Assembly: GCA_950106755.1 (NCBI GenBank)
Contig: OX467082.1
Coordinates: forward strand, 1,302,001 to 1,366,000
Direction of reading: 5' to 3'
DNA length: 64,000 nucleotides
Source: Climacium dendroides
Lineage: Eukaryota; Streptophyta; Bryopsida; Hypnales; Climaciaceae
In this document: positions 422 through 56,798 of the stretch, piece by piece
How the letters are laid out: each line of letters starts with the position of its first letter
Position numbering within the stretch: position 1 is the first letter of the stretch
Program-made: the position numbers and the translations under genes
Notes under the pieces: generated by a model
The model's input: the letters and a program-made list of their open reading frames with translations, nothing else
Database searches by the model: none
Told to the model about the DNA's origin: nothing

Positions 422-425
422 AATA
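422..425. repeat. Target-site duplication AATA, left
   Basis: AATA immediately before the left inverted repeat. The same four bases follow the right inverted repeat at 14164-14167. Confidence 0.7.
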
Positions 426-455
426 GGGTGATTGCAAGAAACACTTGTACTATTT
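426..455 (+). repeat. Left terminal inverted repeat of the 13.7-kb element
   Basis: Thirty bases beginning GGGTGATTGCAA and ending ACTTGTACTATTT. They pair with 14134-14163 in reverse complement with one mismatch. The segment GTTGCGT recurs just inside both ends at slightly different offsets, so the homology may extend past the 30 bp with an indel. Confidence 0.85.
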
Positions 456-1514
456 TCCGTCACCCGTTGCGTGCGGAAGTTGTTTGATGCCATAAGTATT
501 GGAGAAAAGATGGGATCAACTTGAAAATTGGGCTGAGTGCTCTTCCATCATCTCCTCATGTACTGGAATTTTTAGAAAATTTTCAAAAATGATTCTGGAT
601 GGCTTTTTGAATTTTAAGCAAATGTCACATAAATAGTTTTAGGGGTTTTTAGTACTTTTGAGTACCTTTTCTGAAGAGTTAGGGTGTCAGACTTTGTGGG
701 CTCCTTCTTGTTATGGAAATACAACTTCCCAGGAGAGGGATTTGTGATTGCCTCATTTCATGGGCTTAGACATTGGCCAGAACAAAGCTACATTTGTAGG
801 TAATTTCCACTCATGGAAATTAATATTATGAATTGGTTTTTGCACTTCCAGTGACTTCAGGGAGTTGGGAAAAATGGCCATTTTTTATATTAATTTTTTA
901 AGGACCTCCTATAATTGTAAAAAATAGAAATAAAAAACTGCCATTTTCTAACAATATTCTGAAGTTCTGTCTCCCTGTAGTATTCCAACGTAGACAAATA
1001 GTATTGCATAGTCCTAGGGGGGGGGGCACGCCATTGCTACCGTGGACTGCTTGTCCAACTACCTCTTCATCCGCCCCTGCGGTTTGCTTTTATGGAGACT
1101 TCAAAATTGCCTTCTCTGGCGTCTATGCATCGGGAACGATGAACGCCGCCAGCTTTTCTTGTTTCGGAGTTCCGAAGAAGAACAATGACAGTTCCTGCAG
1201 GGAAAGTTAGTGCACGGAATGAGCAGTAGAACTACGATGTTGGGTTTGGAAGGCAGTATACAGAAATCCAATGCTGCATCTTCATGCAGGGAAGAAGGTA
1301 GGGGTAGGAGTGATGAGAACCCGTTTTATGATCAGGGGCTGCTGCAATGTCGCCTTTGAAGTATTCCGGCAGATGAGTGGATGATGCGGCCGGGCTACGA
1401 ACGCGGCGGCGGGCGGAGGATGCTGCGGTACTAAATTAGTGACAACAATGGAGGGATCGTCAGCGGTGTAGTCGCAAGCAACGCAGCATTGCCGAGGACG
1501 CAGTCGCAGCAGGT

Positions 1515-4500
1515 GTGGAAGCCAATTCTGCGCCAAATCTGCGATGGGGATGCAAAAGGAACCGGACTAGTATTTGGAGGAGTGCGAGTCGCATCACGAA
1601 TTCCCTTTCTCGATTGCTACAACGTATTGGGGATTCCGATTTCAGAGCTGCTGTTTTGGAGAAGGTTTTTAGTAGTCATACCATTCGACCGCTCCTCCCT
1701 AGTTATTACCCTACTCCTGAAGAAGCAAAGGCCCAACGACAAATTCTGCTCAATATTAAGTCGGATTTGGTGGCCATAAAAATTCTTCATTCTTCGGGTA
1801 TGCTGGCTCGTAAGAGGGCGATTTTGGAGGCAGTGGTGAGCGAATTAGATTCCGACATTTCAAAGTTCTATAGCATACTCGGTACAAGAAAGGAGAATTT
1901 ACTAGTTGCTGTAGAGCGACTATGATCAGCTACAACAGAAACTTCCTCACGTTTTGCAATTCCAGCTCGAAAGACAAGGGAAGGTGGAATCCGCAATGAG
2001 GTCAAGCAATTGGTCTTGCAGTGGTGGACACAAGAGACGCGAGTGAGTCCCGGGAGATGGGATGTGCGACGCAAACGCCTCGGACGGAATGCATACGACA
2101 CTCATGCAGCGCATCTTCTAATGGAGAGTCAGGTACGGCCTCCCTAATTTCCAATCATGGCTTCAATTTTTTTTGTACAATCTTTGTTTGTTCAAACCTT
2201 CATTGCTTGAGGAAAAGGGTTCTTTGGAAAAGTCATGCACGCTTTCAGGATTGCTAGCCAATAGAGCCCATTCGTGTTCATTGTTAGCAAGTGCGTGATG
2301 TCTTTTCTTTGCAAAATAGAGCGGTTTGATATTATCTTCCCTAAGAAAAAATATTTGTTGCGTCACATGACTGCTGCTTATGTCATCATAATACTAGAAG
2401 TGACTTCTCGCATGTTTGGAGGAGTCCTAATCCGATTCATATTATATACAAGGATTTTCAGATGGAATGCATTGCATTCCATTAGTCCTTCTCGGACACA
2501 TTGTAGGACTTTGGGTATTGTTGTAGTACGTCCACATTCTTCACACATTTGAAGTGCATTTTACATTGTAGTGAACTGCCTACATTGCAGTGATCTATAT
2601 ATCGCAATACGTGGACATGGCTAAGGCCTCCGCTGCCCTGTCGTCCACGCTTATGGATATGCCTCCATAGTACTCAATAGGATGTCCACTACACCCTCCC
2701 TACACTTGTGGTATGTCTTTGCTTTCGAGATGACATATTCAGAATCTTCTTCTCCGACAGGTAGAACACTATTGCTTCAGACATTGTACTATGCATTCGT
2801 TGCTAGTGCTTCCCGATGCAAACATGAGACCTATGTAGTAGCAATGAACACTACATGGATACTTATGCAGTACTTCGAGCTCCTACTTCTGTCGGATCCT
2901 CTTGTACAGTCCTCTGCTACACTGAGATCATACCTTGGGCTCATTTTGAAATTACTAGCGTGTCACTAGCGCTCATGGGCTTAAGTCCCCTATAACTTCC
3001 TTGTAGTCCACTATGTTCTATCTGGACCAATATAGAACTTCACAGTCCTCACTTCGTACTAGTGAGCACCGAGAGAGCAATGCCTTGTATGACGCGAATT
3101 CAGTAGAGTACAATTACATTGTCTGTAGCATTGAGTCTATACTAGCATGCCGCGTTGTAGTTCTCATTTGTCGTCAGCTTTACCCTTGCAATCCGCATGG
3201 TACCAGTGCGACGTCTAATACAATACTAAGCCCATATTCAACGACTCGCTGAAGAAGTCCTCGGTATGCTATGGTCACAGTCAGACAAAGTCCTAGTACT
3301 GAGGTTAGTCCTTTCAGTACTACAGGGTGTTCTTTGTAGTACTTAGGAGTACTTTAAGAATTTACTGACACACAAACTTCACAGCACCCTGAACTCTAAT
3401 ACTGTATAGTACTAATTTGTACTTATTCTTGTACATACTTGTACGTCAAGTACCTCTTCACATGCACCTCATTTTCTGCAGTACGTCAGCATACATCAGA
3501 CGTGCATTGTTGTGTACTTTCCTTCTGATATATATGCATGTTCTCTAAACTTTTTCTGACTATTGTGCTGGAGTACTTGCAGATGGAGTTGTACACACGC
3601 TTTATAGAAGCACATCCACAGTGCTCCATCCAGCAGCGCTCCTTCATCTACTTGCGCCTTTTCTTTGTTATCAAGTGCAAGGACCGGAACGTCTGTTGTT
3701 GCCGGTACCACATCCAAGTGTTGTACTTGTTGGAGGCTTTGAATGCCTTCCGAGACCCCCGGAAAGGGGCACATGTAATTTTCCTCTACAATTGCACTTG
3801 CATTGTGTGCGATAGAGATGATGAAGGCCTCTGCAGTGTTGGCAGAAGTCGATATGCTGGTATGACGGTCCTTTGGGAAAGTCTACTATGTCCGAAGCCA
3901 GAGGATGAAGAATTCCATAACAAGAAGTGCTTGCTTGGATGTTGTAGTCGTTGTGGCGCTAAATTCTTCAACATCTGTCCTTGAGAAAGGGTGGTAGATG
4001 CTACACGGACAATTCACTGGAAGCAATTCCAGTACAAAGTGGTCGGCCGAACTGCGGATGGACAACCAAAGGACCGCATTAAGGAGGTTCACATGTCATC
4101 TTCATTCCGTGAGTTCCTTGAATTCTTTGTGCCGACTGTACAACACTTTATACGGCACAATTTCATTGCAAAGTGGCAAAGTGCCGAGGCAAAAATATTG
4201 AAGGCTTCCTTGTAGACCGGGGCAATTTTGACGCACATTGATTTTGCGGAGAACTACACATTCGAAATCCAAAATGAGATCCAGTCAATGTATTACCATT
4301 CCGACCAAGTGTCAATCTTGGTTCAGGTGACATACTCCGTTTTGGTTTTGGGAGGGTGCTTTGGAGGAGGAAATGCAGTTGGTCAGGGAGACGCACTACT
4401 ACATCTCCGATGATAAGATGCATGACAGTGCTTTTGCCCAACATTGCCTACTCCTGCACTGGAGGTGGGTGCAGTCAAAGGGATCTTCTCCAAACACTCA

Positions 4501-6025
4501 TTATGTATTCAGTGACAGTTGTGCTGCGCAATTCAAAAGTGCAAAGGCCATGTACTTCGTTGCTAGGTCACTGTCTTCTACACTTTGGTCAAAGTCATCC
4601 ATTATACTTGTAGCCGTACTACTGTGTACCCTGTTGTATTACACATTGTACTAGGTAGTATTGTGCTTCGACTGCTTCACTGTAGACGGTCGTTAGGTAT
4701 AGCAACGGCTACTCATTTGAAATGCATGGCTTTCTGTTTAAGTGGACGACTTTTTCATGAATATGACGGAGTCGTTACACAATGCCAGAAATACACGGCC
4801 ATCTCTGGTGGATGCACAATGCATTGGAACTACTATGGCATAGGCCATGGAAAGGGTGAATGGGATGGGGCCGGAGCAGTTGTGAAAAGGGCTCTTCGGA
4901 ATGAGCAGCTCCTGAATCCTCACCGACGACTCCAGAATGCAGCAGACTGTGTTCTCTTCCTAGATGCTACTATGGCTGGATAGGTTCCTAATCAACGTGG
5001 TGACACAAGGTTCCTTCCACACCGTATGCGTCATTTGTCATCCTGCCAAATTCCACGTATGGTTCTCTTGAATGTACCACTATACTTGGGTATTGTAATG
5101 AAATGAGTACTAGGGACAATGCTCGGGTTCGTCAAAGCAGCAATTAGTACCTTTTCTTGGTACTACATCACTCTTGAGGTACTATATAGTGTCCCACGTC
5201 TGTCATAGTACTCATAGTACTATATCCTCTCTCATTTGCAGAAACCACAAAGGGATAGAATTCGTTGTATATACCGCTGGTGTACGCGCTAACAACATCT
5301 GAGGAAGTAGATGCAGGTCATACATGTATTTCCATCACATCGAAGCGCAAGATGTTGACCGCTTGAACACTCAAAGTTGTAATCGTATTCTAGGTTCTTC
5401 AAAACTGCACTCCACTTATGCCCCTGATAAGCATGATCCAACCAAATTGTTCCTCAGACATCTCTCGTGCTTCTGTGGCCCGTGCGTGGAGGGAAACTTC
5501 GTTCACTGTGAGAAGAAAAAATATGTTGATTTGTGGACTGTCACGAAGATTCAACCACGAAATGTCTCCTTCGCTGTTGCCCAATTTGCTGAGGAGGATG
5601 AAGAGGATACCTGGGATTACGAGCTAGATGGTGAATGCATGGGGGACCTAGTGCAACCTAAAGATAATTTTGTTGTGCCAGCCGAGGAGGACAATGACGA
5701 AGGTGTCTCTTTCTACGTTTTACAATGTTAGCAACCAAAGCACATTGTCGAAGGGGACTTTCAATGCGTCTAGGGAGGGCAATTTGAAGCAGGCGACTCT
5801 GTCATTTCCGGAAAGTACTATAAAAAATGGGGACGCCAAGATAGCAACAACTATGTATTCCTCCGTAATTCAAGGGAGGCTTTCTTTGATGCTTATTCTG
5901 TATTTGCTTGCAAGTTTCAAATGATCCCTAGACAATACAGAGTGAAAGGCAGAGAAGTTGTATATAGCATGGCAAAGGAAACAGTAGACGTTATCAACAC
6001 TGCATTGGAAGAGATGAATCTCTGA
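1515..6025 (+). pseudogene. Decayed DDE-type transposase, spliced, with in-frame stops
   Basis: Exon 1 (about 1515-2132) encodes a helical N-terminal region with the motif ETRVSPGRWDVRRKRLG and ends at a donor CAG|GTACGG. A 1450-bp intron follows, and exon 2 starts at 3583. Exon 2 has a Cys/His cluster: CIVCD, then LLCPKPEDEEFHNKKC, CSRCG and CP. Next come the likely catalytic blocks DFAENY (about 4239), FSDSCAAQFKS (about 4507) and, after a probable intron near 4567-4788, HWNYYGIGHGKGEWDGAGA (about 4819). The C-terminal part includes HIEAQDVDR (5338) and a CFCGPC...C cluster (5468), and it stays in frame to a stop at 6023-6025. The frame is broken by stops at 1923 (TGA), 3982 (TGA), 4213 (TAG), perhaps 5300 (TGA), 5729 (TAG) and 5771 (TAG). 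A frameshift lies near 4335-4358 and the frame is also uncertain at the 4567-4788 intron. I recognise the domain order as that of large transposases found in non-seed plants and other eukaryotes; the superfamily is not assigned. Confidence 0.75.
2133..3582 (+). other. Long intron of the transposase, dense in AGTACT
   Basis: Runs from donor CAG|GTACGG to acceptor TTGCAG|ATGGAG, and both flanking exons are phase 0. No conserved coding sequence is seen inside. It holds nine AGTACT palindromes, five of them between 3295 and 3353, plus many GTAC and AGTCCT words. Confidence 0.6.
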
Positions 6026-6603
6026 GTTACAAAAAATGGCATGATGTACAATACAATACCTTACATGAGAGCAATGTTCTCTTTCTCTTGTCTTCTTCCT
6101 TGCCAACTACGTTGGCAAACACACTATCTCCTTCAAGTACTGTCGTCTCTACATAGGGAACGCAATGTCTTCCTCAAATCTTAGCGGTAGGTTCATAGAA
6201 ATATCTGGCACACTCACATGTAGACTACCTACTCGTAGCCCTTCTTCTCTAATAACCTCTACATATTTACAGGAAGTAAACCTATATTCCTCTCACGGAG
6301 ACTGACACAGGCGTACTCTAAAGTACTGACTTGTATTTGTAAGGAAATATTAAAAGTACAATATAGCAATGTGCAGTGTGGTAATGTTCTAGATGTACTA
6401 CATTTAATACAACAACGATAAATTGGTACTAACGTAGTACTAATGTGTACTGTCATAGTATAGTGTGCACTGCACAAGAGTTCTAAAAGTACTATGGATA
6501 GTACATCTATTGAGTACTATTACAAAATTAGCGACCTATAGTACATGTCTGACACTTCACAATGTACTGGAATGCTATGTACAATCGGTCTCAATGTGTG
6601 TAG

Positions 6604-8082
6604 TCAAAGTTGTTCACTTTCCCCTCTGCAGTGCTTGCTGCCACAGGAGCATGGAAATGGCATCCTCAGACCGTTTTCAGTATAAAACGTGCACCCATAA
6701 TCCCATGTGAGTTCCTCTCTCGCCCGCACTTCCCGATTTGTAAAGAAGGCCACTTGCGAGACCTTAGTAGTAATGAGAAACACTTCTTCTTCATGCAATA
6801 TGCAGTGCAGGCCGTCATTCACTCCCCATGTCTACTTCTTCCTCCCAAGGACGCTTTTGGCTTACTTACATGGTATAAAGTCGAAACATTGTGTTCAATC
6901 AAAACTGGATGTCCACCAGATTTGCATCCCCACATCTGCCCTCGCATAGACATCAATTCTACAACTGTCACGTCAGGGCATGTACTCGGCATTTTCAAAG
7001 CATGGAAAGCTAACTTTTATAGAATTGTAAAGAGAGTGAGGACATCACCTGTGGTTCAACCAGTGCGAGACATTCATATATTTGGATGCGTCAATGGAAA
7101 GTAATGAGTCATCTCCTTTAAAGACCTCTGACTGCCAATGTGCATCCAAAGCTAGAGCAAAATGCTGCCCTGTTCCCCGCCTCAATAACTCAGCATTGGT
7201 TACAATTTCCCCACCATATTCAAATACGAAGCATCCCCGGTGAAGTCTCTCCAATGTCCGAATGCCCCAACCTTTCGTATTGCTTGCATGGAACACCTGC
7301 AATGTTTGCCAAGCTGTCAATACCTGGAAATTGCAACATCCACGTCATTTGATTCAAAGAAGAATACGGCACGAGACAAATCGCTTGATGCAATGAATCC
7401 AAAGCTAGAACATGAGGAAACGCTGCGGCTGCCGGAATTGCACCGACCTCCAGTTGCTTCTGCACGCCTCCTTGCACAACTCGATTACGACAGGGAGGCT
7501 TACAACCACACACATCGTAGCACTCCCGGATGTACAGTCTTTGAACATGGCCGCCACATTTTCCGTCCTCACTTTCCGGACAAGAGGGAAGCTCTGCACA
7601 GCGGACGAGGCCTCCGTTCTGTAGTGATCTCGGCCGTCTGAACTGCCGTGGCAAATGCACTCCATGCAAGTCATTTGGCCACGCTAGAAACCAAATGTCG
7701 TTTTGCTAATAAACATGCACTTCCTTGGTCACCAAACGTTAGTGCTGTGAATAAGGCAAATGCATAAGTACACTAAGAGTACATAGTGTGGTACTCTACT
7801 TACCTCTGCCAAAAATTGGTCGCTCAAAGTATCAATTCCAACATAAGCTGACCCTAGAATGGCTTCGGAGTAGACGGCGCCTTCAATGTCACTGCATTTT
7901 CTCTCAGAAGCTACAAAAGGACAAATGTGAGCAGTGCATGCTGATGCTAGAGCACCCACATTCACTGACTCATGCAAAACAGGTTTGTGTGTGTAAATGT
8001 AGCCACTATGAATGGGTAACTTGCAACTGTGTGCATCAGCATCGTGAAATAGAATAGGAGGTGCTTCCAATCCTCCTGACAA
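6604..8082 (-). pseudogene. SUVR-like SET-domain histone H3K9 methyltransferase inside the transposon
   Basis: Exons read on the minus strand as follows. Exon 7804-8082 contains a DLSGGLE...P stretch like the region before pre-SET in SUVR proteins. Exon 7448 to about 7660 has the pre-SET cysteines and IRECYDVCGCKPPCRNRVVQ. Exon 7049-7296 opens the SET domain with KGWGIRTLERLHRG, EYGGEIVTNAEL and ending NHR. Exon 6870-6935 begins CGDANLVDI. Exon 6604-6762 has VAFFTNREVRAREELTWDYG and the post-SET CSCGSKHCRG. Introns have GT-AG borders at the positions the protein requires, and NHR|CGDANL restores the cofactor-binding motif across a splice. Exon 6870-6935 seems to lack one base near 6911: the frame reaches TGA unless one base is added after GACATCC. 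So the copy is broken, or one base was missed in assembly. Family knowledge predicts a nuclear enzyme methylating histone H3 lysine 9. Further 5' exons may reach about 8.6 kb but are not certain. Confidence 0.75.
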
Positions 8083-8685
8083 GTCATGTATAAATGTTGA
8101 ACGTGCACTCTGTGGATAGCACCATATTATACAAGAGATATGTAGGACGAATAAATAGTATATTGCATACTGTGATGAGCTGAAATACAGAAAATTTTAG
8201 AACTTCATAGCACACGGCATTGCAACACCCCTCTTCAACATTCGTACTCGGCCCCTATATTGCTGGCACTAGGCCCGTGCGGGCGTTTACTACAGGCAGC
8301 ACATGTCAGTCCTATCCAAAAAAGGAGCACTTTTGTAGAAGTAGATTTGTCAGAAGTAGGGAAGGGTTTCCCCCTGCACATCTTCTCCATGTGGTACGAC
8401 CTCAGTTGGAGATGCATGCGCTGTAAGTTCACTAGTTACCCACCTCATCCGGACTACACGCTCCAGCAGCACTTGCCGATGGAGGACTTCCTGATGACGC
8501 AGGCATCTTCGAATGTAACTGTCTTCTGCTAGGTTCCGGAGGATTCCGTGTCTTCGCTGACGCAGACCTGCCTCCTCTACCTGACACAATCATACAAAAC
8601 ATTGAAGAACAGTATGCATTCATTAGTTACATATGAAGTAAGAGACCGTCGTGCATCCTTATGTGGACTTTATTTTTCATTCGTG

Positions 8686-8793
8686 AAGCGTACAAAGATT
8701 AGGACTAATGTCATCATCGTCGCGTACTGTGGAGGACTAAAGCGTACAAAGATTAGAACTGCCAATATCATCGTCGAGTACTGTTGAGGACTA
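8686..8793. repeat. 54-bp tandem duplication
   Basis: Two units, 8686-8739 and 8740-8793, share AAGCGTACAAAGATTAG at the start and GAGGACTAA at the end. They lie between the SET gene and the RING-H2 gene. Confidence 0.7.
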
Positions 8794-8916
8794 AAGTACT
8801 ATTCATGCGTACGTTATATACTAAGAGGAATCACAAATAGTCCTTGTAAGACGAACAAGGACATATTGTAATACTAGAAAGAGGAACACTTCCACTGCAA
8901 CGGACATTGGGTACTG

Positions 8917-11900
8917 TTACACACTATACGCGGGTCGTCTTGTCCCACGTTTCACTGGGCTGGCTGCGGAGTCTACTAGCTCAATCCCTTCTTCTCTGAG
9001 CACCCTTGTGTTGCTACGTACAAGCGCAATAGGGACTTCCTTCCCGTTGGAATTCTCCTTCAACTCTGATGCATCTAGAATCGTGATATCCCAGGGATCC
9101 TCAACTGTAGCAGTCGGTTGAGACTCTACACGCTCGGTCTGCAACAATGTCGAGCATTTATGGCATCAAAGAACATTTGAAATCTCACACTTCGAAGCAC
9201 CTGAACAGAAAAATGAAGACATAGTAATGCAGCGTACGAAGGAATAAAGCAAATACGAAGTCCGTTGACTCCAACACAATGACGTACCTCTAGCGGCTTG
9301 TCTGGTACAGAGCACGTAGCAGAATTTGGGCTCGCTTGCAAAAGGATGTCATCAAAGTCCTCTCCTTTCGCATCAAACTCCATGAGCTGCTTGTCAAAGT
9401 CTGAAAGTGGTGTTGTGGTCTTCTTGTAGTTTTGTAGGAAGTCGTCCACAATGTCTACCTCATTGGTGCGAGGTTCCAGAAGTGTGACTTTCTTCTTCAT
9501 AACGGATGCATTATTTGCAAGAGGGGTTGGTGGTGTCCCTCTCTTTTCCAAAATGAATTCTTTGGTGCTTCAAGGATGTGGCTGTGCTCCTCTCTTTTTG
9601 TCAGTTGAGTCGGCATCCACTTTTTTGGTCGCTGATTCAGATAGTGGTGGCACAGATTGCGGAGTGTCTGTGTAGGCGACCTTCACATTAGCTTCGACGA
9701 CAGAGCCCTTGGAATCAAAAGGATTGGAACTACCGCCGCCTTCACGAATGACTACAGTCGGAGTGCCAAGCAATGTGTCCTCCTACTCTTTTGCCATTGC
9801 GTGGCCAGCATAGTTCATTTCCTTCAAGACAATTTTAGAGAATGTGCTATCTGAGGTTGACATGCTGGGTGCACCAACTACAAGGGATCATAGTCCTGCC
9901 CATTGACACCGCAGTACTTGTTCTCAATGTCTTCTTGAAACGAGGACGTCTTCATGACAAAGAATACTAAAAACTCATAGACCAGACATTGCCCCGGCAT
10001 TCCTTTACAAAGAGTAGCATATTATGTTTGTGATCACAACATGCATGAATCACAATTTGGAGAAGCAATAATGTCAAGAACTTCAGATTAGGTACGTCTT
10101 TCACTATCTAAGTACTGAATTTTGAGTCCAAGGCCTTGAAGTGAGGAACATCGTCGTGGCCTACAATAAACCCTGAAGCACTGGAAGTCGTTACTGAAGT
10201 ATCCACTGAGAAGAAAACGTATGTCACGTACCAAGTGTTGAAGGCCCCCCAATTTGTTGACCACGTATTCCAGTTGCGGGCAATTTCTTCATGGAGTTGT
10301 CGTCTACATCATGTCCACGCACTTCAGTATTGCTGAAGCTGACGGGAAAACCCCAGCTCCTTAGCCACTTGGGATTCACGACTCCGCAAAGAGAGTGAGC
10401 GCACATAGAAGATGTTTTAAACCATTGCGCCGCACACCATGGGTGATACGTGTGCCTGCAACTGCAAAGCACGACATCTCCATGAGGAAAAAGCTCCTGG
10501 CATGCGGCACAAAGCGGCTGCTGTAACATGATGTCTTCCATTACAGCACCGGGTAGAGCCTCTGTGGTATTCACCAATGGATGTGGGTGGAGTAGCACTC
10601 CATCCCCTCCACGCATCAAGTCTTGCAAATTTTCTTCTAAAGCTGTCAGCCGTGTTTGGATACCCAAAATCTTTCCAATCACGTTGTCGAGAGCCGTCTT
10701 GCAACTAGCCTCTACTGCGGTCAACTCCGCGGACTTCTTTGAATGCCCTTTCAATATCCCCTTGAAAATGGCCGATCCACTGTCCTCTCCCATCTCTTTC
10801 ATTGTCTCCTGCACTTGCTGAATTCCGAGGACACTCGCACGAAGTTGATCAGCTGCAAGGTCGGCCTTTGTTTGGAGGTCTTCTGAGTCGGCCTCGAACT
10901 TATTGAGTGATTCGTTTAACGAATTCACCAACTCTTGCACCGCAACAAGTCTGAAAAAATGGAGGTTCATGTTAGTAATGAAGGTCCAAGAAGTACGTAG
11001 TAGTACTACTTAGTAGTACTATGTCACTCACCGTAATTGTAGTCCTGAAGCGGAGGACTATGTCGTACTACTAACTAGAGAGAAAACAATGCACAGCAAA
11101 GTCCTAGTACTCACAGAAGGGACTGAACTTGTACAGTAGTATTTTCGAAGGCTACGACACTGTTTTGTTAGTCCTTCTAGTACAGTGTACGAGTGTAGGT
11201 GAATGCATGGAGTACATTGTCTACGCTAGAGGAAGCCGCCGGGGGAGTAGTACTCAGTCTTGGTACTAGTCCAACGTCACGTTCCTAAGCCATTGAACTA
11301 AGCACCTATAGGGATTGCTGAAGGTGGCGGACAACATAATTGCCTTGCATAGTACTAGTACCACTAAGCTTTTCCGACAGCAAAGTAGTATATGATAGTG
11401 GTCTACTTACTATGAAATATCGTCATCGAGAACTTCTTGACAGTGGGAGTACTTATCAGAGTTAGAGTCGTGGCTGGCAGTACGTGTTAGCCTTCATGCA
11501 AGTATTACGCTAAACCACTAAGCAGATTGCATTGCTGTCCGGCTAAGGTGGATAATTAAGTAGTACTCTACGTATGCATACAGAGTCCTCGAGGTCCGCC
11601 GACTACACAGCGTTTGCGTCAACTTTTTTGCTATAGTTGGTAGTACTGAATGAAGGCACAAATGCTCACTTTTAACAACGTTGCAGTGGTGCAAGTGCCA
11701 GAAAGCAGCATAAAGGTTCTACATGTGCTAGCCTGAACGTACTTGGAAATGAAAGCTATGTACAATGATCACAACATTGCTGTACTCAAACATAGTGCAC
11801 TATGCAACACGCGGAAGAAGAAATGAAAAAGCCACATACAGAAACTTCCTAATACATGCATAGAGTACTTGTAGGACAGTCGTGGAAGACTAAGGATACG

Positions 11901-12818
11901 TAGTACCGGAGTGCATTGCTCGGCTGTGGTTACAGTTACGGTCTTCTCTTCAAAGGACTGGAAGAATTGAATGCGCAGCTTCTTTTCGTCAGCAACATCC
12001 AAGTATTTGGAGATGACCTTCGCTTTGACAACCTCTTCGAATGTCTTATTTTGCGCTTCAACCAGTCGTGTCAACCAAGTCTTCACACGCCTAGCATACG
12101 ACTGCCGCTACTCCAAATTCGTTTTAGCTGCGAAGCCTACCCAATTAATGCTCTTTCCTTTCGTCTACAAAGTCCAGCCCATAGCCATTTCCTTGCCGAT
12201 GTGGGTAGGGCATTGTATCCTCTGGTAGATTTGGCAGTATAAAGACTCCACTTCTGTCCGAAGAGTTGGTGTCAGTTTCTCCGCAAGGAAGAATCCATTT
12301 CGCCCTTTCTCTTCATTAAACATATCCTCTACGTCAGTCTTGGGGACGTCCTTCTCCAAGCGTAGTCTGTGAGGGTTCAACCCATCCCTTGTCAATTTAC
12401 AAGAAGTGTGGAATATGTCCTCGGACATGGCGGTGGGAGGACGCCAGGAGGGCTGGCTCAACATATTCAGTTGTCTCCAGCATTCAACTTCATCGTAAGT
12501 CGTTGCAAAGAAAGCAACCTTCTTCCGCTTCAAGCGTGGGCTCCGGTACTCTTCGTCCGGACTCTCCTGTTCGGAGTCTTCATCTCTGTTGCCGTCGGAG
12601 TCGTAGTCGGAAGAAACTTGTCGGGCCTTCTGCTTTCGAGGGAGTGCTTTTCCCTTGCCCTTCACTTTACTGGCACCATCGGAAGATGCACTTGCCGTAG
12701 TGGCTTTACCCTTTGCTGGACTGAGCGCCGGTGCTTGCGACGGAGCTTTTCTCTTGCCTTTCTTCTCATAGGTAATAGTTACGTTGTCGTCAGCGGGAGT
12801 AGTCTTCATCTTCGCCAT
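8917..12818 (-). pseudogene. Coiled-coil / RING-H2 protein gene of the transposon
   Basis: The start is a true ATG at 12816-12818. Exon 1 (12818 to about 12177) encodes a lysine- and serine-rich disordered N-terminus with a basic stretch, then a more structured part ending KEMAMGWTL. A second exon near 12100-11890 gives VKTWLTRLVEAQNKTFEEV. Exon 10963-10232 encodes a long helical, coiled-coil-like region and then a RING-H2-like cluster: CAAC, CSCRHTYHPWC and CAHSLC. C-terminal exons (about 9782-9288 and 9140-8917) are disordered and acidic and end at TAA. The donor GAG|GTACGT and acceptor TTGCAG|ACC agree in phase. A TGA interrupts the exon at 9570-9572. Joining these exons into one gene is inference from strand, order and splice phase. 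RING-H2 domains usually give ubiquitin-ligase activity; a role in transposition or silencing is unknown. I do not recognise the family. Confidence 0.55.
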
Positions 12819-13223
12819 TGCAGAGTCCTACACAAGGTAAGCAAGCCATGAACATCAAGAACAGAACATTAGAAACCAAAGTCTACATTGTTTGTGCAAA
12901 TTCTAAAGATAGGGTGAAACCAGTGACATATGTGTAAGAAACAACGGAGTAGTACAAGTCCAGTAACATGAGGAATCCACCAAAAAGAAAAAAAAGGACA
13001 ACGAGCATGATATAAGAAAATATACAAAGCATTATAAAGTACCATGACAAGAAGGGAATTCTTATAGAACAACGCACCCCGTTCAGTAGTTGTATGCGCA
13101 GTCGTTGTTCTCCTTTGACGATGTGCTGCTCTAAGAAATCTGCACAAGAATAAATTCCAAACATCTACAAACGGTGGGTGGAGGACTTGAGGACAACGAG
13201 AAGAAACTCACAGCTAGCCTATA

Positions 13224-13244
13224 GACCCTAAACCCTAAACCCTA
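13224..13244 (-). promoter_or_regulatory. Telobox cluster upstream of the RING-H2 gene
   Basis: Nearly three CCCTAAA units in a row, about 410 bp upstream of the ATG at 12818. Such interstitial teloboxes are common in promoters of plant genes. It is too short to be a telomere. Confidence 0.55.
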
Positions 13245-14133
13245 GCACCGCAAACCACCATTCACTGAGAGCGATTACCAAAACAGCAGTACATCACTGT
13301 GTGTGAATTGAATCGCGAACAAGAAAGAACACCGTCATCCTATTGAAAGGAGGCAAGTCCTGTCGTACTAGAATTCAGCCCTAAACCTAAGACGGTAGCA
13401 TGAGCTTCGCTCGGGCTTCCCTGTGACAAACCACAAAGGGCGCACTAGTACGTCCGTCATGCCTATGCACACAAAGACGCATCTAAACCAATGTCGAACG
13501 AAATTGAAGAGGATAGGGGCAGGTAGGGCGTACCTCTTCTGAAGCGGAGACGTTCTTCTAGGCAAATGAATGGCACAATTGAAGCTCACGCAGCGAAAGA
13601 TACTCCCATCCACACAATGAACGCCTTCCGAACCCACGCCGTTGTCGTGCACTACAAAGCGCGCACTTCACTGAAGTTGGCAACTCCAACGATGCCCGAA
13701 ATCGCCCGAGTCAATTTTGTCTTCAATCCAAAAACCGACAGCAACAACAGTAGTTGCAAATGGGAGCTCAATTCGACGATGCAAGAGAGTGAGGATGCCA
13801 TCGCCGACAGAGTTGTGGCAAAACTCAACCTTCGTAGCGCTCCGTGAGGTCGCTTCAACGGCACGTGGAAGTGGAGTCCTAACTCAACCGTCCTCCACGT
13901 TGGCACCACAATCAAGCGAAACGAGAGTAAAGTGCATGATGGCGGCATTATGACAGGCATCTGACATCCTCCACCCGCCATGTTAGTCTTTCGAAAGTTT
14001 GCTGCCACGTGTACTTGCAGCCGTAGATCGGAATTCAAATCAACGGCCCACGTTTCATCCTGCGCACCTTTCGTAGTACTCACAGTACTTGTAGTATTGG
14101 AAGTACAGGACCCTCGAAAACCGAAAACGCAAC

Positions 14134-14163
14134 AAATAGTACAAGTGTTTTTTGCAATCACCC
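14134..14163 (-). repeat. Right terminal inverted repeat of the 13.7-kb element
   Basis: Reverse complement begins GGGTGATTGCAA. It matches the left end at 29 of 30 positions. Confidence 0.85.
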
Positions 14164-14167
14164 AATA
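14164..14167. repeat. Target-site duplication AATA, right
   Basis: AATA immediately after the right inverted repeat, matching 422-425. A 4-bp match alone is weak evidence, but it falls exactly at both ends of the inverted repeats. Confidence 0.7.
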
Positions 14168-20513: not shown

Positions 20514-23500
20514 CTACTCCTCCATTGCGTTTCCGTCGTCTTCAGCATCGACAGCCTCCTTGACATCAATAGTGAATTCGTTTTCCTGATCACAGCCAAG
20601 ATAAGCATCACACATAAAGAACAGTGTGTAGGTCTTCTTCCCCAAGTCATTTGGTGCAGTAAAATCAAGTTTCACTTTGGATCTTCGCTGCAATGAAACT
20701 CGCTTGATAGCCAGCAACTGGTTGCTCTTGGGGTCGCACACAACTAGCCACCACCCTTCCTCTTTGGGTTTAGGGAACCTGGGAGCATCCACAGGACCTA
20801 GCTCTTGCCGCCCCTCCATTTCTCTCTCAAGAGTAACCTGAAGCGTCACAGTTTCACCTGCAGAAATGTCATCACTGTCTAGAACCTCATGGGCAAGGTC
20901 GATATTCGGGAAGCGGTTGCAGACCCTGGCAATGTCCATCAACTGGGCATCACTCATCTGCAGAAGCTCCCTTCTCTCGTCATCCTCCATCTCTACTAAA
21001 TCGAAAACTGTCTGAATGGGCTTGCCTGGGTTATCAGCACATCTCTTTGCAAGATCTTTTGTGAAGTAGGGTAACTGAAGGAGATATGAATCACGCTCCC
21101 ATAAACCTTGAGTTACCATCTGACTAAGCTCCATTGCTGCCAAGGCAGGATGCAGCCACCCGGAGCTTGAAATCACATCAACCATGGCTTGTATCAATCG
21201 ACTTGCATCAATCAATACATCTCTCTGATCCAGCGCAAGGTTCCCACTCACGCCGTGCCTGGCAAAATGAGCTTGCAGCAGAGCATTGGCCTTCACATGG
21301 GGGTCAGTGAATTTCGGTTTGTCCATTGAAAAACGTTGGTGCATGACCAGCTTTCGAACCAGCTCATCTTCACCAGGCCGCATCGGCAGTCGTGCATACT
21401 CCGAAGCTGATGACAGTATCTCACACAGGCCCTTCAACTTGGTCTTAGCAGTCAATGAAGAGCTGAATAGCTCAATCGTGGTATAGCTGATGTAGTAATA
21501 GGCCGCAATCATTCCGAGATTTAAAGGTGACAAGTCCATGTCGTCTTCTATTGCAACGCACTTGCTGGACTCCAAATCTGACAGAGTGGCTTCCACAAGC
21601 TCAGACAGATGGTCGGACAAATGGCGATGACTCACACCTTGCAGGTTGTAGTAGTTCGGATTCTGGGTGAGCCGTCGGTACATAAACGTCCACGTCAAGT
21701 AGTCTACAGCATCCTGCTTGTTTTCGATCGTGCGCACGACAACTTCCGCATTCAAGTGGTCATGTAGGTAGTGATCCAAATGACTCTCCACAGGGAAGGG
21801 TTCGTACAAAAACTTCTTATAATAGTCCTTGCGAGGAGCATGGCAAAGAATTACACACTTGCCGGATGTATCGACTTGAGGACGACTAGCTCGCCCCATC
21901 ATTTGAAGCAGGTCAGTAATAGGGTAGTCGGTATGTGCATTTTCACGCCCATCGTAGAACTGCGTTCCCATTACAACCACCAGGTGGGCTGACAGAGTCA
22001 TACCCCAGCACATACTACTAGTAGCGACACAAACCTGACAGGCAACAAGCAACTTTAGATGAACACACCGGTATCAACACAAGCAGGGATAAATGCAGGC
22101 CCTTCCAAAGGAACTTCAAAACTATGCAACAGAGGAGCTAAAATCAAGGCAGATGACTGGGCCAGAAAACTGACCATTAATACATTCATACTAAAGAACA
22201 AAATGAATAACTCTAAAATAGATATAACTTGAATGAATTCTCACACCTGTATTGCTTCCGCCATAAACAGTTTTGTTACCGCCTTTTGTTCGCTGGCAGT
22301 CAAACCCTCGTGCAGATAACCAATCCCTTGGCTCAGTGCATGTTTAAGAGCCTCGTCCTTTACATCCGCTAAATATGGAGCAAGATCTTTTGGAGTGCAG
22401 TGCAAGAAAGGCGACTTTTCACCCCCACTCACGGTAGCGTAAGTGACTAGATCCAAGGCTGTCAAGCGTGCGTGCTTCCGGGTAGGTACAAATACTAGAG
22501 CAGGTTCTTGCTTTTTGGCGTGTTGAACTATAGCCGTGTAAGTCGGCTTTGTCATTGCTTGCATACGAGCTTCAAAATTCGCAATGTCAACGCCTTGAAT
22601 ATGAATTTCTAGAGGAACTGGTCGCACACCAGGAGGGAAATTGAACAAGCCGTGAGAACTGGCACCAATCCACTCTCCAAGGTCCTTCGCATTCGCTAGA
22701 GACGTTGACAGAGCAACAATGCGAATCTGATTCTCGGTTTGGCTGCCAATGTACCGCATGCGAGAAACAATCACCTCAAGAACAGGTCCTCCTTCTCCAC
22801 CAATGAGATGCAACTCATCAACCACAAACAAACTCACCTGCATTCACCGAGCAGACATGCCAATCAATAATTCGTTTGTGTAGTTCAGTTCGATCAGAAT
22901 ACTGAGCTTAGAACGAGACTCAAATCCAGAAGGGGTTAAACTCTTTTAAGAGATGTTCTTCGGAAATGGTGAGCTGGACACATCAGTGAATCAACCGACA
23001 GAAACAGTAAAGCCTATCGCACCTGTTGCACATGTTTCCGCTGCTTCCATCGCCGAGAGAGAACATCCCACCTCTCCGGAGTGCTAATAATTATCTGGCC
23101 TTTCTCCAACAGCTTGATGTCAGTAGCTGTCTCCCCAGTGAGCTCCACCACCTTCACGCCCAACTCTTTGCCGAACTTCGACTCCCAATCACGAAGTCGC
23201 TCTTTGGCAAGTGCTTCTACTGGTGCAATGTAAACACATCGCCCACCAGTTTCTCCCTTCTGTAGCATCCGGAGCACGGCAAATTCTGCGCAGATAGTCT
23301 TCCCACTGCCAGTCGGAGCGGCGACGAGGACATTGTCGTCTGTGTTGTAAAGAACAGGAAACACCTGCAAGGCATTAGACAGCCGTCCTTGTTAGTTGCA
23401 TGTCGGCAATTGAAGAAGGGAGATTGGATAAATCACAACTGCAGGAATATACAAAACAACCTGAATAGAACAGTCATTGTCGAAGAAAGTTGAATGTTCA

Positions 23501-26500
23501 GATCAACATACTAACAATCTAAGGTAGATGCTATCTCCTGTCTCCTACGGTGATCCCTGTTACGAGCAGTAACTCATCTAGGCACACTGGGTTGGAGTCA
23601 TTAGGAAGTGGCGTAAGCATGACGTAGCTAATATCTATGGCCACTAATCTTCGAATGAAAATGGGGTTGTACACTCACTCAAAATCACGCACATTGAAAT
23701 TGCATAAGGAATTCGTACAGAGTACTGAACATTTGATATCTACAGATGAGACTCTTGTACCAAAAGAGCTCTCCACAGCTCTTTACACGCTCCAAAATCA
23801 CAATCCTACAGATGTTGAAATGCTTCAAGTGGCGCCAGTAGTATCCTCTACCTACTTCTCTAGCCATTGCAGATATGACCAGATGGTGATTGAGTACGAA
23901 GTACGTGAAAAAGATCCAACCCACACATTTAAGGAGACAGTGTAATCACTATGAACTACAAGAAATAACACAAAAAAATTCAAGAGGTTTTGTACCTGCG
24001 TCTGTATAGGGTTGAAATGCCGAAACTCCTTATATAATCGCTCGTACGAAGGATTACGCAGAGCAGAGACAGGAAGCGGCTGCAAGTCAAGAAGTTCCGT
24101 GGGTGGTGGGTACTTCTCGGGTAAAATGAGGTGCCGGAAAGAAACAGGCAGAACTGTTTCTGAACCCAACCACCGGTCGGATACAACTCGCACAAAATAC
24201 TGAGGCGGCAAAGGCTCGTAGATGGGAACAGTGAAGCTCAAATTGTGATCTTCCTCGATATACTGCATCTTCAGTAGAAAATACTCATGGTGCAAAATAT
24301 TCTCCCCATCATTGTCTTCGACGATGATCCAGAAAGATTCAACGTAACCATGATACTTTTCATCCCACTGAAAATCAGGGGTAATGGTAAGATCCACCTT
24401 GAGGATCGAGCGAGTAATGGGTTGAACATGAGCTGCAAGTTCCAGTTTGGGAAACTGATGGATGTATCGATGAATGGATTTACCCATCTTGGGATATCGA
24501 ATCAGTTCTCCAATCTCTTGAGAGGACAAATCATAGTAGCGCTCCCAAGGCAGGTCTTTCTTTTCGATTTTGCTGAGGATGTCATTTGGGATTCCCTTGA
24601 ATTGGCGGAGTGGTGTTTGACTGCTCCACATTCGCCTATTCACCATTTTGCACAGCGTAAGAGCTTTTTCGGCCAGCTGAGCCCACCCACGCTTGAGGAC
24701 TATTTCAAAAAGGGCTCTCATCAGCCGTCCGGCGCTCTGCGTGATGAAGACCATATCTGATGTCAGAGATAAGCCCTCCAGCTTTAGTTGCGAGATGTAG
24801 GCTTGCAACAACACATTGATTTTTGCACTAGGCTCCTCCAGACTCTCTTTCACTGGAATAGGGACCCTATCCAAAAGCTTTGCAAGCTCCATCTTCTCCT
24901 CCTCGCGAACAGTAACATATTTAAACTCCTCGGAAAGCGAAAAAAGACGACACATCTCGATGTCTCCCATGGTTGGCTTCAAGTGCTCATTATAAGTAGC
25001 CATAGAGCCATGGGAGATGTAGTAATAACTTGCAATGCGTCCAAGATCAGTGACCTGAAAATATCCACTCTTCCGATCGTACTTCACTAAGCTGTTCCTG
25101 TCCAATACAACCGCTGCGGAGTGCACAAGGTCTGCTCGTCGCTCTTCCAGTGACGGATCAGCCTCGAGAGCGTCACGGCTCACCCCATATAGAGTTGGAT
25201 TCTTCAGCATCCGGATGTACAGATAGGTGTAACCCAGCCAATCACACGCTTCACGAGCATCTTGCACACTACCTAAAACAATCTCGGCATTGAGATTATC
25301 CGCCAACTTCGATATGTACTGGCTCTCGATTGGCAATTGCTGGTTCATCAAGGACAAGTAGTACTGAAGCTCACTGTGACCAGTAATTATAATACCCTCG
25401 CCATAAGAGTCGAACTGTGGTCGACCAGCTCTCCCTAACATTTGCATAACATCTAGAGGACTTAACTCGGTCCAGGCGCCTTTCTCTGGGTTGTAAATCT
25501 GAGTTCCCTTGATGATAACGGAATGCGCAGGAAGATTGACACCCCACGCAAGGGTGGCCGTAGAGACCAAAACCTGTATGTGACCATCTGCAAACAAATC
25601 CTCCACTAACGTCCGATCTGCCCTAGCCATACCAGCGTGGTGAATAGCGAACCCATAAGGAAGAAGATCTTTCAAATCGTTGTTCTTTACCACTTCGTTT
25701 TCCTTCTGCAGAATTTCACGACTTGCACTATCTTCCTTCAGAAATCGCCCCAGCGTGTCATTTGCCAAAGCTGCGTCCCTGATCGCACGAGCTGTTTTAG
25801 CCGTTTCCTTCCTGGAATGGACAAATATAAGAACTTGATGTTTCCCAGCCACTTCCATCACTTTCTCGTAACAGATATCATTCATGAGCTGAAAACGTTG
25901 CAGAGGCTTCCGAACAGTGACTCCGATGTACTGTTGAGCCAAAGGACAGGGGCGATAGCTATTGTCGAAATGAAAAAGCCCTTTCTTGTCGTCGACTTTC
26001 AAAAATAGCGACACATCTTCATAATTTGGCAGCGTAGCTGATAACCCGACCAAACGAATCATCTCTTGTGTAGTTTCAATCTGCCTCACTGTTCGTGCCA
26101 CTATGCTCTCAAGTACAGGCCCCCGATTGTCATGCAGTAGATGAATCTCATCAATGATCAAAAGCTTGACCATTTGAGTATATGTCCGATCTCCCGACTT
26201 CCTCGTAATGATATCCCACTTCTCAGGAGTAGTAACAATGATCTGGGTTTCTTCAATCTGCCCTCTTGAAAGTGTGGCATCCCCAGTCAGTTCTTTCACA
26301 GAAACTCCATAAGGCTCCAAACGCTGGGAAAAATTACCCACCATTTCTGCAACAAGAGCCTTCATAGGTGCCACATACACAATTTTGAAAGAACTGAGAT
26401 CAAACGTACCATCAGCCTGCTTCCTCAGACCCAGCTCATGTAAAATGGTGAGCATGGCCACATTGGTCTTACCAGCACCTGTTGGAGCGCATAAGAGAAC

Positions 26501-28081
26501 GTTTTCCGAGGTAAATAGGGCTGTTTCGTAAACTTTGCTCTGAACCCTGTTCAAAGTCTTCATCCCTTTGAACGCCGGTTGCGCCCAATCGGGCATATCA
26601 GTAATTTTGACAAGCTCTTCACCCTCCTCAAACGGCTTTGGTTTCAAATACGGCACGTGCACTTCTTCGTAGCCTTTCTTCGGAGTTCGATACGAAAGAG
26701 CAGGCAGCTCGCACCTCTTGTTTGCCATCAACAATCCTCCTTGATGGAAGGTTAGTTGCTCCAAGTCCAGCAATTGCCGCTGCCCCTTAAGCCATCCACT
26801 CTCTCCTCCTGTGGCACCCACTTCCCGGTCCTTCCTTCGACCTTTATCTTCAGTCTCACCACCATCATCCCTCAGCTTCTTGGCCTCCTCTCTAATGCTA
26901 CGTTCCAAGTTCTTTTGTCGCTCTTTCGCAGTTGCCCTGGTAGCATGCAGTTGCTCAAGAATCCCTGCTAAAATAGAACCCCCATTGCTCATCTCTTCCT
27001 CTATGCTCTTTTTTGCATCCTCGTCCTCTGCTCGCGCAAGTCGAGTGCACCACACGACCTTTAGACGGTTCCGCAGCAGAAGCTTAATCAGGTCAAATTT
27101 GTCATAGTCTAGCAGCATGACCAGGCGATTCTCGACTTCACGATCATCCCCTTCTGCCAAGGTGCTCAAAACCTCCTCCGCAAGCTTCTGGCCCAGCTGC
27201 GGATCAATGTCGCCATGGGCTTGTGAGATTTTCCTCTGCAGCCAGTACGCGTCAATGTCTTGCACGTTCAAACCCTCGTCCGCTTCTTCCATATCCTCAT
27301 CGTCCTGTCCGCCCATTTGCATAGCGGATGCTTGACGCGTATCCTGACCATCTCCGTCTTCCGCGTCACTTTCCTCTTGCACCTCATCATAATCGCTTTC
27401 ATCCTCTTCTTCCTCCTCCTCAAATTCCACAGCAACCCCAATATCATCATCCAGCGCTTCTCCGGCTCCTTCGGTCCCTGTATCTCCTCCCTCCGAGTAG
27501 TCACTAATGAGTTTCGCTATAGCCACCAACTGGTGGAACCGCTCAATCGACATCGAGTTCAACAGTTTTTCAATCTCTTTCTTCTTATCCGAATCCCTAT
27601 ACTTATCGTTCTTCAAACACCCTAGCACTTCATCCGCCGCGCCCCGCAGAATATCCTGCGGCTGGTCCCCAAACTGCTGCTGAATGGTACTCAGCAGGGC
27701 CTCGTAGGCAGCCCGCGTCTCTTTGGTTTTCGGTCGATACATGCCATCGTCCACAATGGACAGAACACTCTCCTCTTGGACCTCACGTAACCGCTTACTG
27801 GACCGCTTAGGCCCATCCTGCCCCGCCTGATCCTTGTCCTTGGCTTCGCGCTTGCGCCGATGCTTGGTGAGCTTCTCCTCCAGGTCCGCGGCGCGACCAT
27901 GATACACGCGATCACCAAACGAGCGGGGTTCGATCTTGCCATACAAACTCTCGGGCTCGCCCGTGGGCTCGTGCGTGTCGCGAGGCCGAGTATCGGTGGT
28001 CAACACCAGACTGGAATTGGCGCGATACTCATACTGCTTGAAGCGCGCGTGCGCTTCCGCGCCACCGCCAAGATGCGCCAT
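20514..28081 (-). CDS. BRR2: U5 snRNP RNA helicase BRR2 (Ski2-like, two helicase cassettes)
   Basis: Four exons, join(20514..22034, 22247..22837, 23023..23364, 23996..28081), encode 2179 residues, close to the roughly 2170 of plant BRR2. The ATG at 28081 is chosen because [20 protein letters not shown] matches the plant BRR2 start. BRR2 unwinds U4/U6 snRNA to activate the spliceosome. The N-terminal region is acidic. Cassette 1 has Walker A APTGAGKT (about residue 530), DEIH (about 643), LSATLPN and [12 protein letters not shown], then a Sec63-like part. Cassette 2 has APTGSGKT (about 1378), DELH (1483), ALSTS in place of SAT, and [12 protein letters not shown], then a second Sec63-like part. 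The changed SAT and GRAGR motifs agree with the known non-catalytic, regulatory role of the second cassette. All introns are GT-AG, and the first begins in the phase-0 codon after FNPIQTQ. The gene looks intact. Confidence 0.96.
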
Positions 28082-28116
28082 GGCGGGGCAACGCACGCAA
28101 GCAGCACGCGAAGGCT

Positions 28117-55076: not shown

Positions 55077-55739
55077 TCACAAATTGGACTTTGGTAGAAC
55101 TGCATTTCCTGAGGGAGCACCCACATGAAGGCCCGCACTTGCATCGACAACACTGGGGCCTTCATTTGCTGTCATAAGAAGGCTTTCATTGCCGACATCT
55201 ACAAGAGGATCCTCATTTGCATCCACAAAAAGGCCCTCATTCACATTTACATTTAGACCCTCATTGGTACCGTCATTTGCGTCTTCACTGGCATCCATAG
55301 GAGGACCCTCATTGACATCAATACCAGGGCCATCATCTGCATTCTCAGGAGGGCCCTCGTTGGCATCCTCAAAAGGGCTCTCATTGACAAAGGATTGACC
55401 CTCGTTGTCCTCCCCATCGGCATCCACAGGAAGGCTTTCACTTGCATTCACGGGAGGAGGGTCCTCGTTGGCATTCACAAACTGAGAGCCCTCATTAACA
55501 TCAACAGGAGAGCCTCCATTCATGCTGGCATCAACGGGACCCTCGTTGGCATCTACAAACGGGGCCTCATTGACAGTCAAATTGACAACTGAAACATCTG
55601 TGGGTATCCATTCGTCATCGTTGAAGAATATGGAAGGCTCGTTAAAGAACCCAGACCCGAGCTCATCAGGAAACCGCCTCTCCCCGTCAAACCCTAAACC
55701 TGATATATGCAGATAGAACACAGCACTTTGATTTTCCAT
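55077..55739 (-). CDS. Acidic protein with about 12-residue VNEGP/DANEGP repeats
   Basis: An uninterrupted 220-residue frame from a true ATG (55739). The first 60 residues are non-repetitive (HISGLGFDGERRFPDELG, FFNDDEWIPTDVSV). The rest is some twelve imperfect repeats on the theme VDANEGP, VNEGP, ENADDGP, strongly acidic and probably disordered, ending GNAVLPKSNL. The DNA repeats follow the codons, so it could be a minisatellite that happens to stay open. Against that, the unique N-terminus has normal codon use and the frame has no stop. No known domain is recognised. It could be an exon of a larger gene. Confidence 0.4.
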   Translation of the reverse strand: MENQSAVFYLHISGLGFDGERRFPDELGSGFFNEPSIFFNDDEWIPTDVSVVNLTVNEAPFVDANEGPVDASMNGGSPVDVNEGSQFVNANEDPPPVNASESLPVDADGEDNEGQSFVNESPFEDANEGPPENADDGPGIDVNEGPPMDASEDANDGTNEGLNVNVNEGLFVDANEDPLVDVGNESLLMTANEGPSVVDASAGLHVGAPSGNAVLPKSNL

Positions 55740-56798
55740 GCACTTACTGCATCATCAGTTTTTGTGATTACACTCAGCATTCCCATCCCCAATGCCAAGC
55801 AAGAAATGGCAGTCGTAAAATTGATCGATTGTTACCTTCACAGCCATCTTTTTCAGACGAATGCCAGTTAGATTATAATCAAGTTGCAAAACATAATCAT
55901 ATGCATACCCTACGTCAGGTTATAAGCCCAACCACAATCTAAGAGCAACAGGTAGTTGAATTCAGAATACAACAATATCATATAGACGCTGACAATTTGA
56001 AAAAAATATATAGACCTAATCCAGTCCACCTGTCTTCACAAACCGCCAGTGGAATCATTCAATGAACTTCCCAAAGCCGGAACTGACTTCCCAAAAAAAC
56101 AAAGAAGAACAAAGAAGATCATCCATTCGATATTGCAATACCACGTCCAATGACAGCATAAAGAGAGGTAGCAGGATTTCAAAGATTCCAAAAACGGAGT
56201 AAGTAATATATTGCATGAAAGCTTCTCATATTCAAGCTTCACAATACATTAAGCAAAGCCAGCAAGCAGAATATATGGTACATTACCTACCACCTAATAA
56301 CCTACAACCTAAGAGCGAAAGAGTGACGAAAAACTTCTAGTATTCTTTCAACCCAAACCTTCTAGCATTATCTAACCTCTGAAGCCACACTAACTAACCC
56401 TATCTACCTCCCCCAATATACACAGGAAGCGTCAAAGCGTACATCAGCCATCGATGATTCTACTATTGACCCCAGATGATAAACCCTTCCAATGATCTTA
56501 TTTCGGTGCTCCCAATAAATAGAAGTCACGACCAGGTTACAATGACTCCTCCGCCTCGGGTCCCTCCGCCACCAAATAAAACCACATCCGAAGACATGCT
56601 ACGTACACCATCCATAAACTCTACAGCGTCTCTTTGCTTTTGCATACAAAAAAACCCAAATCCCGTCCTTCCAGCAGTTTGCCACACCATGATTCAATTC
56701 CTTCAGTCAGTCGACCTTGTGTTCCAAGGCAGAAAAGAAACCTCCGTAACGCAAGCGACTCGGAAGAATGCGCGTGAGTTCCTAAAATTGTAACAAAA
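55740..56798. other. Spacer between the acidic ORF and the RING gene
   Basis: No supported coding region. The part nearest 56798 is likely the 3' UTR of the RING gene. Confidence 0.4.

Follow-up and report, generated by a model that had tools for sequence, protein, structure and literature searches.

A moss DNA transposon family with a SUVR-like SET-domain gene between its transposase and a RING-H2-like gene

Introduction

SUVR1/2/4 proteins, which are linked to methylation of lysine 9 of histone H3 (H3K9), represent a class of enzymes that plants use against transposons. Here, we analysed a 64,000-nucleotide stretch of the genome of the moss Climacium dendroides (assembly GCA_950106755.1, contig OX467082.1, positions 1,302,001 to 1,366,000; hereafter the window), in which a gene that appears to be of this class lies inside a DNA transposon. 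Related copies and families in the same genome indicate which of the element's genes belong to the transposon group as a whole and which to particular branches.

Structure of the element

Positions 426 to 14,163 of the window are occupied by a 13,738-bp DNA transposon with 30-bp terminal inverted repeats (TIRs) matching at 29 of 30 positions and a 4-bp target-site duplication (TSD). The inverted-repeat search detected arms at 423-455 and 14134-14166, and together with genome searches using the end it places the TIRs proper at 426..455 (+ strand) and 14134..14163 (- strand), with one mismatch. Reading of the flanks gives AATA at 422..425 and again at 14164..14167, and hence boundary letters AATA/GGGTGA...TCACCC/AATA with GGG..CCC termini; two random 4-mers from this AT-rich flank agree with a frequency of 0.0085. 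The TIR transposon of the original prediction, with its 30-bp ends and AATA on both sides, is thereby borne out. Allowing up to three mismatches, the 30-bp end occurs at 690 places (337 forward, 353 reverse; 100 listed) in the 412.6 Mb and 123 contigs searched, while the reversed but not complemented control has no match. Between the ends lie a DDD transposase gene on the + strand, then a SET gene and a RING-like gene, both on the - strand and convergent to the transposase. The predicted DDE-type transposase and SET gene could both be modelled as exons with the expected motifs.

The transposase frame is open from 1443 and was modelled from 1806 to 6025 (+). Exon 1 (1806..2132) has a frame common to the genomic copies B and C described below and a donor site, and the homologues P0018 and P0019 reach into it; it is open back to 1443 with an uncertain start codon, and in the window copy it is broken by a stop near 1923. 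Exon 2 (3583..4566) includes a Cys-rich part, the first D (DFAENY) and the second D (SDSC or SDGC, AAQFKS), and is interrupted in the window copy by two stops (3982, 4213) and one inserted base (near 4350). The third D (HGKGEWDG) lies in exon 3 (4743..5009, 3' edge uncertain; stop at 4981 in the window copy), and exon 4 (5310..6025, 5' edge uncertain) encodes the C-terminal part. All features of DDE/D cut-and-paste elements are present, namely TIRs, a TSD of fixed length and an RNase-H-like core with three acidic residues, and the window element is probably a decayed autonomous copy of such a transposon.

The transposase group appears to match no Pfam family and to fit no assignable superfamily name. 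Pfam scans of the element pieces gave no nuclease or helicase match, and no C-x2-C was seen by eye between D306 and D348 of transposase A1, with D348 taken as the last catalytic residue. A viral_contigs search with transposase A1 returned 15 pattern stretches with no relative among them, a BFVD fold search gave nothing at E 0.001 or below, and the 50 VIA matches listed included no eukaryotic cut-and-paste transposase, those shown being retroviral integrases and IstA. Kyakuja/Dileera/Zisupton (KDZ) was rejected on the 4-bp TSD, as 8 bp is given for Zisupton (PMC12730594); CMCT/Lanisha, of which Lanisha is described there as EnSpm-like (PMC12730594), failed on the features tested. The TSD length fits the 3 or 4 bp given for Academ (AcademX) in PMC10045372, a comparison by description only.

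The SET gene runs from 8109 to 6604 (-) in five assigned exons, with a 5' part within 8110-8640 lying outside the model. The exons are 7804..8109 (DLSGGLEAPPI, start of the pre-SET), 7448..7642 (pre-SET cysteines and NRVVQGG; acceptor picked by eye), 7049..7296 (GWGIRTLE to NHR), 6870..6935 (CGDANLVDI, with a 1-base deletion that shifts the frame in the window copy relative to copies B-D) and 6604..6762 (EELTWDYG and the post-SET CxCx4C), all on the - strand, and together they yield the order pre-SET, SET, post-SET. Copies B and C have an Arg codon in place of the window copy's stop at 6604-6606, and the gene may therefore extend beyond this point. The window piece barely passes the Pfam cut-off for the SET domain (22.5 vs 22.4 bits), and copy C scores 45.4 bits (PF00856, 1.2e-11); the post-SET reads CSCGSKHC in copies A (the window) and B. 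A Pfam scan of 325 amino acids (aa) of the protein, with the 5' exons outside the scanned model, gave no pre-SET or WIYLD match. Protein searches returned 10 matches, and the two plant proteins among them that are named by family are both SUVR4 (42% and 44%); the search covers 0.55-1.75 of the query length, and a long plant SUVR protein could be missed. SUV39H2 and EHMT2 came first in the PDB, and identity to two host SUVR homologues, L071 and L073, is 49% and 46%. Judged from its sequence, the protein appears to be SUVR1/2/4-like and distinct from the host's own SUVR genes; the SUVR type proposed in the original prediction agrees with the SUVR4 matches and the post-SET CxCx4C.

The RING-like gene extends from 12818 to 8917 (-). 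A Lys-rich N-terminal exon (11898..12818, -), of which 307 aa are open in copy C and which has no Pfam match, was tentatively joined to an exon encoding a coiled coil and a RING-H2-like domain (10227..10960, -), followed by C-terminal exons within 8917..9780 (-; about 9780-9287 and 9152-8917) that are open in copies B and D. The domain misses the Pfam RING cut-off (PF13639, 23.2 vs 27.3 bits) and matches RNF24 in the PDB at 6e-6; its last zinc pair, by eye, reads C-x4-C.

Copies, non-autonomous relatives and decay

The gene-bearing copy B (C1:16595748-16609478, TSD TAGG), copy C (C1:36019066-36031339, TSD ACTT; RING exon lost, with about 9774-11497 missing) and copy D (C1:1145139 downwards, about 1 kb inserted, read without the right end) share one gene order with the window copy, at 93-95% pairwise identity. 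All four are decayed, each with its own stops or frameshifts, and the window copy is dead, its transposase and RING genes being broken by in-frame stops and SET exon 6935-6870 by the 1-base frameshift. A DNA search with the SET gene found 16 window-family copies, of which 15 are full-length (that of the window plus 14 at 90-95%) and one is partial (93%), besides a single relative at 70%. One of the 16 (copy C) is uninterrupted over the five exons; the other 15 are interrupted or partial, the partial copy having no stop in its remaining part.

The expectation that the SET gene recurs between the same ends is confirmed in the copies read, and the gene is found at 16 places of the genome. The RING gene likewise recurs in the copies with the same gene order, but copy C has lost its RING exon, and the intact copies that had been looked for come down to one uninterrupted window-family SET gene, and all four elements read are decayed. 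Two findings had been named as counting against the original prediction, namely copies with the same ends that lack both the SET and RING genes, and SET and RING sequence that is syntenic host sequence in relatives without the ends. Neither was encountered for gene-bearing copies, although miniature inverted-repeat transposable elements (MITEs) with the same ends do lack the genes.

These MITEs form a 735-bp AT-rich family (e.g. C1:1954715-1955449, L028) with the same 30-bp ends, 4-bp TSDs, 30% G+C and a mean pairwise identity of 95%, and are gene-less as non-autonomous derivatives are. Single exact ends mostly lead into them: on C1, 15 ends read 10 kb inward gave 10 MITEs, one gene-bearing element (L021) and four other or truncated elements (L022, L024, L026, L027), and on C2, 19 of 20 ends read for about 1 kb were MITEs (29/35 in total). 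Among 32 rows of MITE flanking repeats, 28 were of 4 bp, one of 3, one of 1 and two of 0; L007 and L023 are one copy, so 27 of 31 distinct copies have a 4-bp TSD. L022, L024 and L026 have the same ends and other AT-rich interiors, with no transposase or SET found by tblastn over 10 kb, and are probably further non-autonomous families.

Private substitutions in the four aligned gene-bearing copies are largely C>T or G>A (801 of 1130). Per available site, the load is 20% at CG (202/1012), 24% at CHG (259/1084) and 8% at CHH (340/4110), a pattern consistent with CG and CHG methylation of old copies. Among MITE singletons, 49 of 141 are C>T or G>A (3 CG, 4 CHG, 42 CHH), and the AT-rich MITEs are a poor control for this load.

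Association of SET and RING genes across families

A search with transposase P0011 gave 76 matches, and 70 of 295 candidates were scored and merged to 70 loci, the window copy not included; the SET search gave 125 matches (122 of 122 candidates scored, grouped into 41 loci) and the RING search 101 (150 of 350 scored). Locus counts are lower bounds because not all transposase and RING candidates were scored. Genes were taken as associated when they lay within 15 kb of the transposase in convergent geometry. By this measure, at least 52 of the 70 transposase loci, from several families, have a RING homologue, at least 16 have a SET gene and at least 15 have both, while one (copy C) has SET only and 17 have neither; other geometries within 15 kb of these loci gave no SET or RING neighbour. 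When RING positions were randomised (1000 runs), 0.24 loci on average, and never more than 3, had a RING neighbour.

Two large families, about 41% (e.g. C34:9715667, C39:21690916, C37:31309455) and about 47% (e.g. C35:24050590, C16:1935589) identical to P0011, have the RING gene and no SET within 15 kb. The RING-like gene therefore belongs to the core of the wider group, and the SET gene is branch-specific; the idea that the RING-H2 protein is cargo, part of the original prediction, is ruled out by the RING homologue in the same convergent position beside 52 of 70 transposases. Open transposase frames in several members of these two families suggest that parts of the group may be young.

At all 15 loci with both genes, the SET lies between the transposase and the RING, in the same slot and orientation. 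Ten are window-family copies and five belong to other diverged families, which we label Ia (C1:10692025, C40:8382518), Ib (C3:2763998, C1:51594851) and Ic (C3:45259444); labels Ia-Id, II and III are a reading of identities and frames, not a clustering. Two more SETs lie farther out, 17 kb from C39:364513 and 23 kb from C16:454855. Seen from the SET side, a RING lies upstream on the same strand at 29 of 41 loci, 14 of them outside the window family. Three SET loci, C3:43478171, C34:2061363 and C37:10228848, have the same internal arrangement and are preceded at 3.3 kb by a RING on their strand, but lack a scored transposase match; they are probably a further SET-bearing family, Id (L072). That related families in the same genome carry the SET in the same place suggests a functional role for the enzyme within the transposon.

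Selection on and origin of the SET gene

We compared the SET core (107-112 codons) among the window family, Ia, Ib and Ic. Between families, silent change is near saturation (pS 0.68-0.91) and replacement is limited (pN 0.23-0.41), and core residues, including NHRC and LTWDY, are conserved. Because several diverged families carry the SET in the same slot with sequence under purifying selection, the gene can be regarded as owned by the element, and the near-saturation of silent sites would fit its retention since before the families diverged. In one branch of the transposon group, or in a few, it appears to have been kept for a long time under selection.

In the tree, the host homologues L071 and L073, which have no RING or transposase among the listed loci nearby, join angiosperm SUVR4 (approximate likelihood ratio test, aLRT, 88; ultrafast bootstrap, UFBoot, 70) and not a transposon SET, so that the separation of transposon SETs from host SUVR genes appears moderately supported. 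The window-family SET is nearest to Ic (59% identity). An intron directly after NHR is read in the window SET, in families Ia-Id and in L071, which suggests that the SET was captured from a SUVR gene as genomic DNA. Families Ia and Ib join the metagenome proteins P0004 and P0005 (aLRT 93, UFBoot 51). These two SET proteins, from contigs of 8.6 kb (P0004) and 50 kb (P0005), run on through an intron located at the same NHR site and could come from transposons in other species.

Other features of the window

Inside the element, 13222-13245 is a short run of CCCTAAA units resembling the plant telomere repeat. A host BRR2 helicase gene (20514-28114, -; 1420-aa open frame) lies about 6 kb from the element; the part compared (23855-28018) has a best protein match of 97%, with Marchantia at 86% and Riccia at 85% and 83% as the nearest liverwort matches bearing a name, and the open frames down to 20514 look like the remainder of the gene. 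A 285-aa open frame at 56799-57656 (-) resembles, by eye, an RMA-type membrane RING E3 ligase, and one of 224 aa at 55077-55751 (-) is built of NEGP/VDANE-like repeats.

Interpretation and alternatives

We consider it probable that the SET gene is an element-owned gene under selection, that its product acts in trans as an H3K9 methyltransferase on element chromatin, and that the RING protein is a core partner. The group would have two core genes, the DDD transposase and the convergent RING-H2-like gene, with a SUVR1/2/4-type SET fixed between them in one or a few branches. While these families were active, the SET protein would have been a working enzyme, its most likely effect being H3K9 methylation of the element's own copies, either as self-restraint or as a chromatin state that suits its transposase; the RING protein might serve transposition or protein turnover. 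More tentatively, and with somewhat less than even confidence, we suggest that a plant transposon lineage may have kept its own working H3K9 methyltransferase since before its families diverged and writes marks on its own copies or on competitors.

Several observations weigh against this interpretation. Within families, replacement and silent counts (6.5 vs 5.5 for window copies B and C, 8 vs 6 for Ib, 6 vs 0 for Ia) are too small to show selection, and the Ia pair implies that at least one Ia copy is relaxed. Exons and introns decay alike in the four window-family copies, for which reason the selection argument rests on the cross-family pairs. Family Ib reads EGLTWDY where other families read EELTW, and the sole uninterrupted window-family SET (1/16), that of copy C, has lost a post-SET Cys. 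As 54 of the 70 transposase loci have no SET match within 15 kb, the group as a whole can do without the gene, and the tree does not settle the monophyly of transposon SETs, so more than one capture is possible.

The main rival, which we regard as unlikely, is that the SET protein is an anti-silencing decoy that competes with or misdirects host SUVR/SUVH proteins and shields the element from H3K9 methylation by the host. Anti-silencing proteins encoded by plant DNA transposons have a precedent in VANC (PMC5735166, PMC10398659), and the heavy C-to-T load in the four copies, highest per site at CHG and CG, is what would be expected if the host methylated the element. However, a pure decoy would not obviously need the NHRC and LTWDY residues that are kept between families. 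Less likely again are independent captures, in which separate families each took a host SUVR gene and the conservation reflects host selection before capture. The intron shared with L071 and the open question of monophyly would accommodate this, whereas the identical slot and orientation at 15 of 15 loci and the grouping of both host homologues with angiosperm SUVR4 speak against it. Passive capture of a functionless, hitch-hiking host gene fragment, as in Pack-MULE-type transduplication, is improbable: 15 of 16 window-family SET copies are indeed interrupted or partial, but four or more diverged lineages have preserved the full pre-SET/SET/post-SET order together with introns, and their pN is much lower than their pS. 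Accidental nesting of a transposon with unrelated host SET and RING genes is refuted by the same gene order in copies elsewhere and by the RING placement statistics (52 loci observed).

Relation to known systems

To our knowledge, VANC, encoded by the VANDAL elements of Arabidopsis, is not a SET enzyme. VANDALs are likewise plant DNA transposons that encode a protein acting on their own epigenetic state, and VANC is described as a sequence-specific anti-silencing protein, unlike the SET here. HarbingerS and MuDR families of Phytophthora are reported to have taken up SET histone methyltransferases (Kojima and Jurka 2014, cited in PMC12730594), so the presence of a SET gene in a DNA transposon has precedent. 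Those systems have oomycete hosts and Harbinger-related or MuDR transposases, whereas here the host is a plant, the transposase is another one, and a RING partner, a 4-bp TSD and a SUVR1/2/4-type SET are found. The original prediction that no plant element with a SUVR-type enzyme had been described stands to the extent that the literature searched (titles and the openings of abstracts, with most subscription literature outside) showed no SET-bearing DNA transposon from a plant, but it is qualified by these Phytophthora elements.

KDZ and other TET/JBP-bearing fungal transposons likewise carry a chromatin- or DNA-modifying gene, in KDZ a TET/JBP dioxygenase and not a SET, with 8-bp TSDs in Zisupton (PMC12730594). 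Retrotransposons of dinoflagellates and charophytes that bear a DNA methyltransferase (DNMT) also carry a silencing-type writer enzyme, though as a retrotransposon with a DNMT rather than a DNA transposon with a SET (PMC5890265). SETMAR/Metnase likewise places a SET next to a DNA-transposon transposase, and is described as a domesticated primate gene, not a mobile element carrying a SET (PMC8994322).

Implications

Where transposons carry epigenetic enzymes, the arms race between mobile DNA and the silencing machinery of the host can be tested directly, and with SET-bearing and SET-less families of one transposase group, this genome lets chromatin state, copy number and age be compared side by side. 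Automatic annotation of such genomes may mistake SET genes of transposons for SUVR genes of the host. If the more tentative proposal of a retained, mark-writing methyltransferase is true, a transposon would carry and evolve its own branch of the host's silencing machinery.

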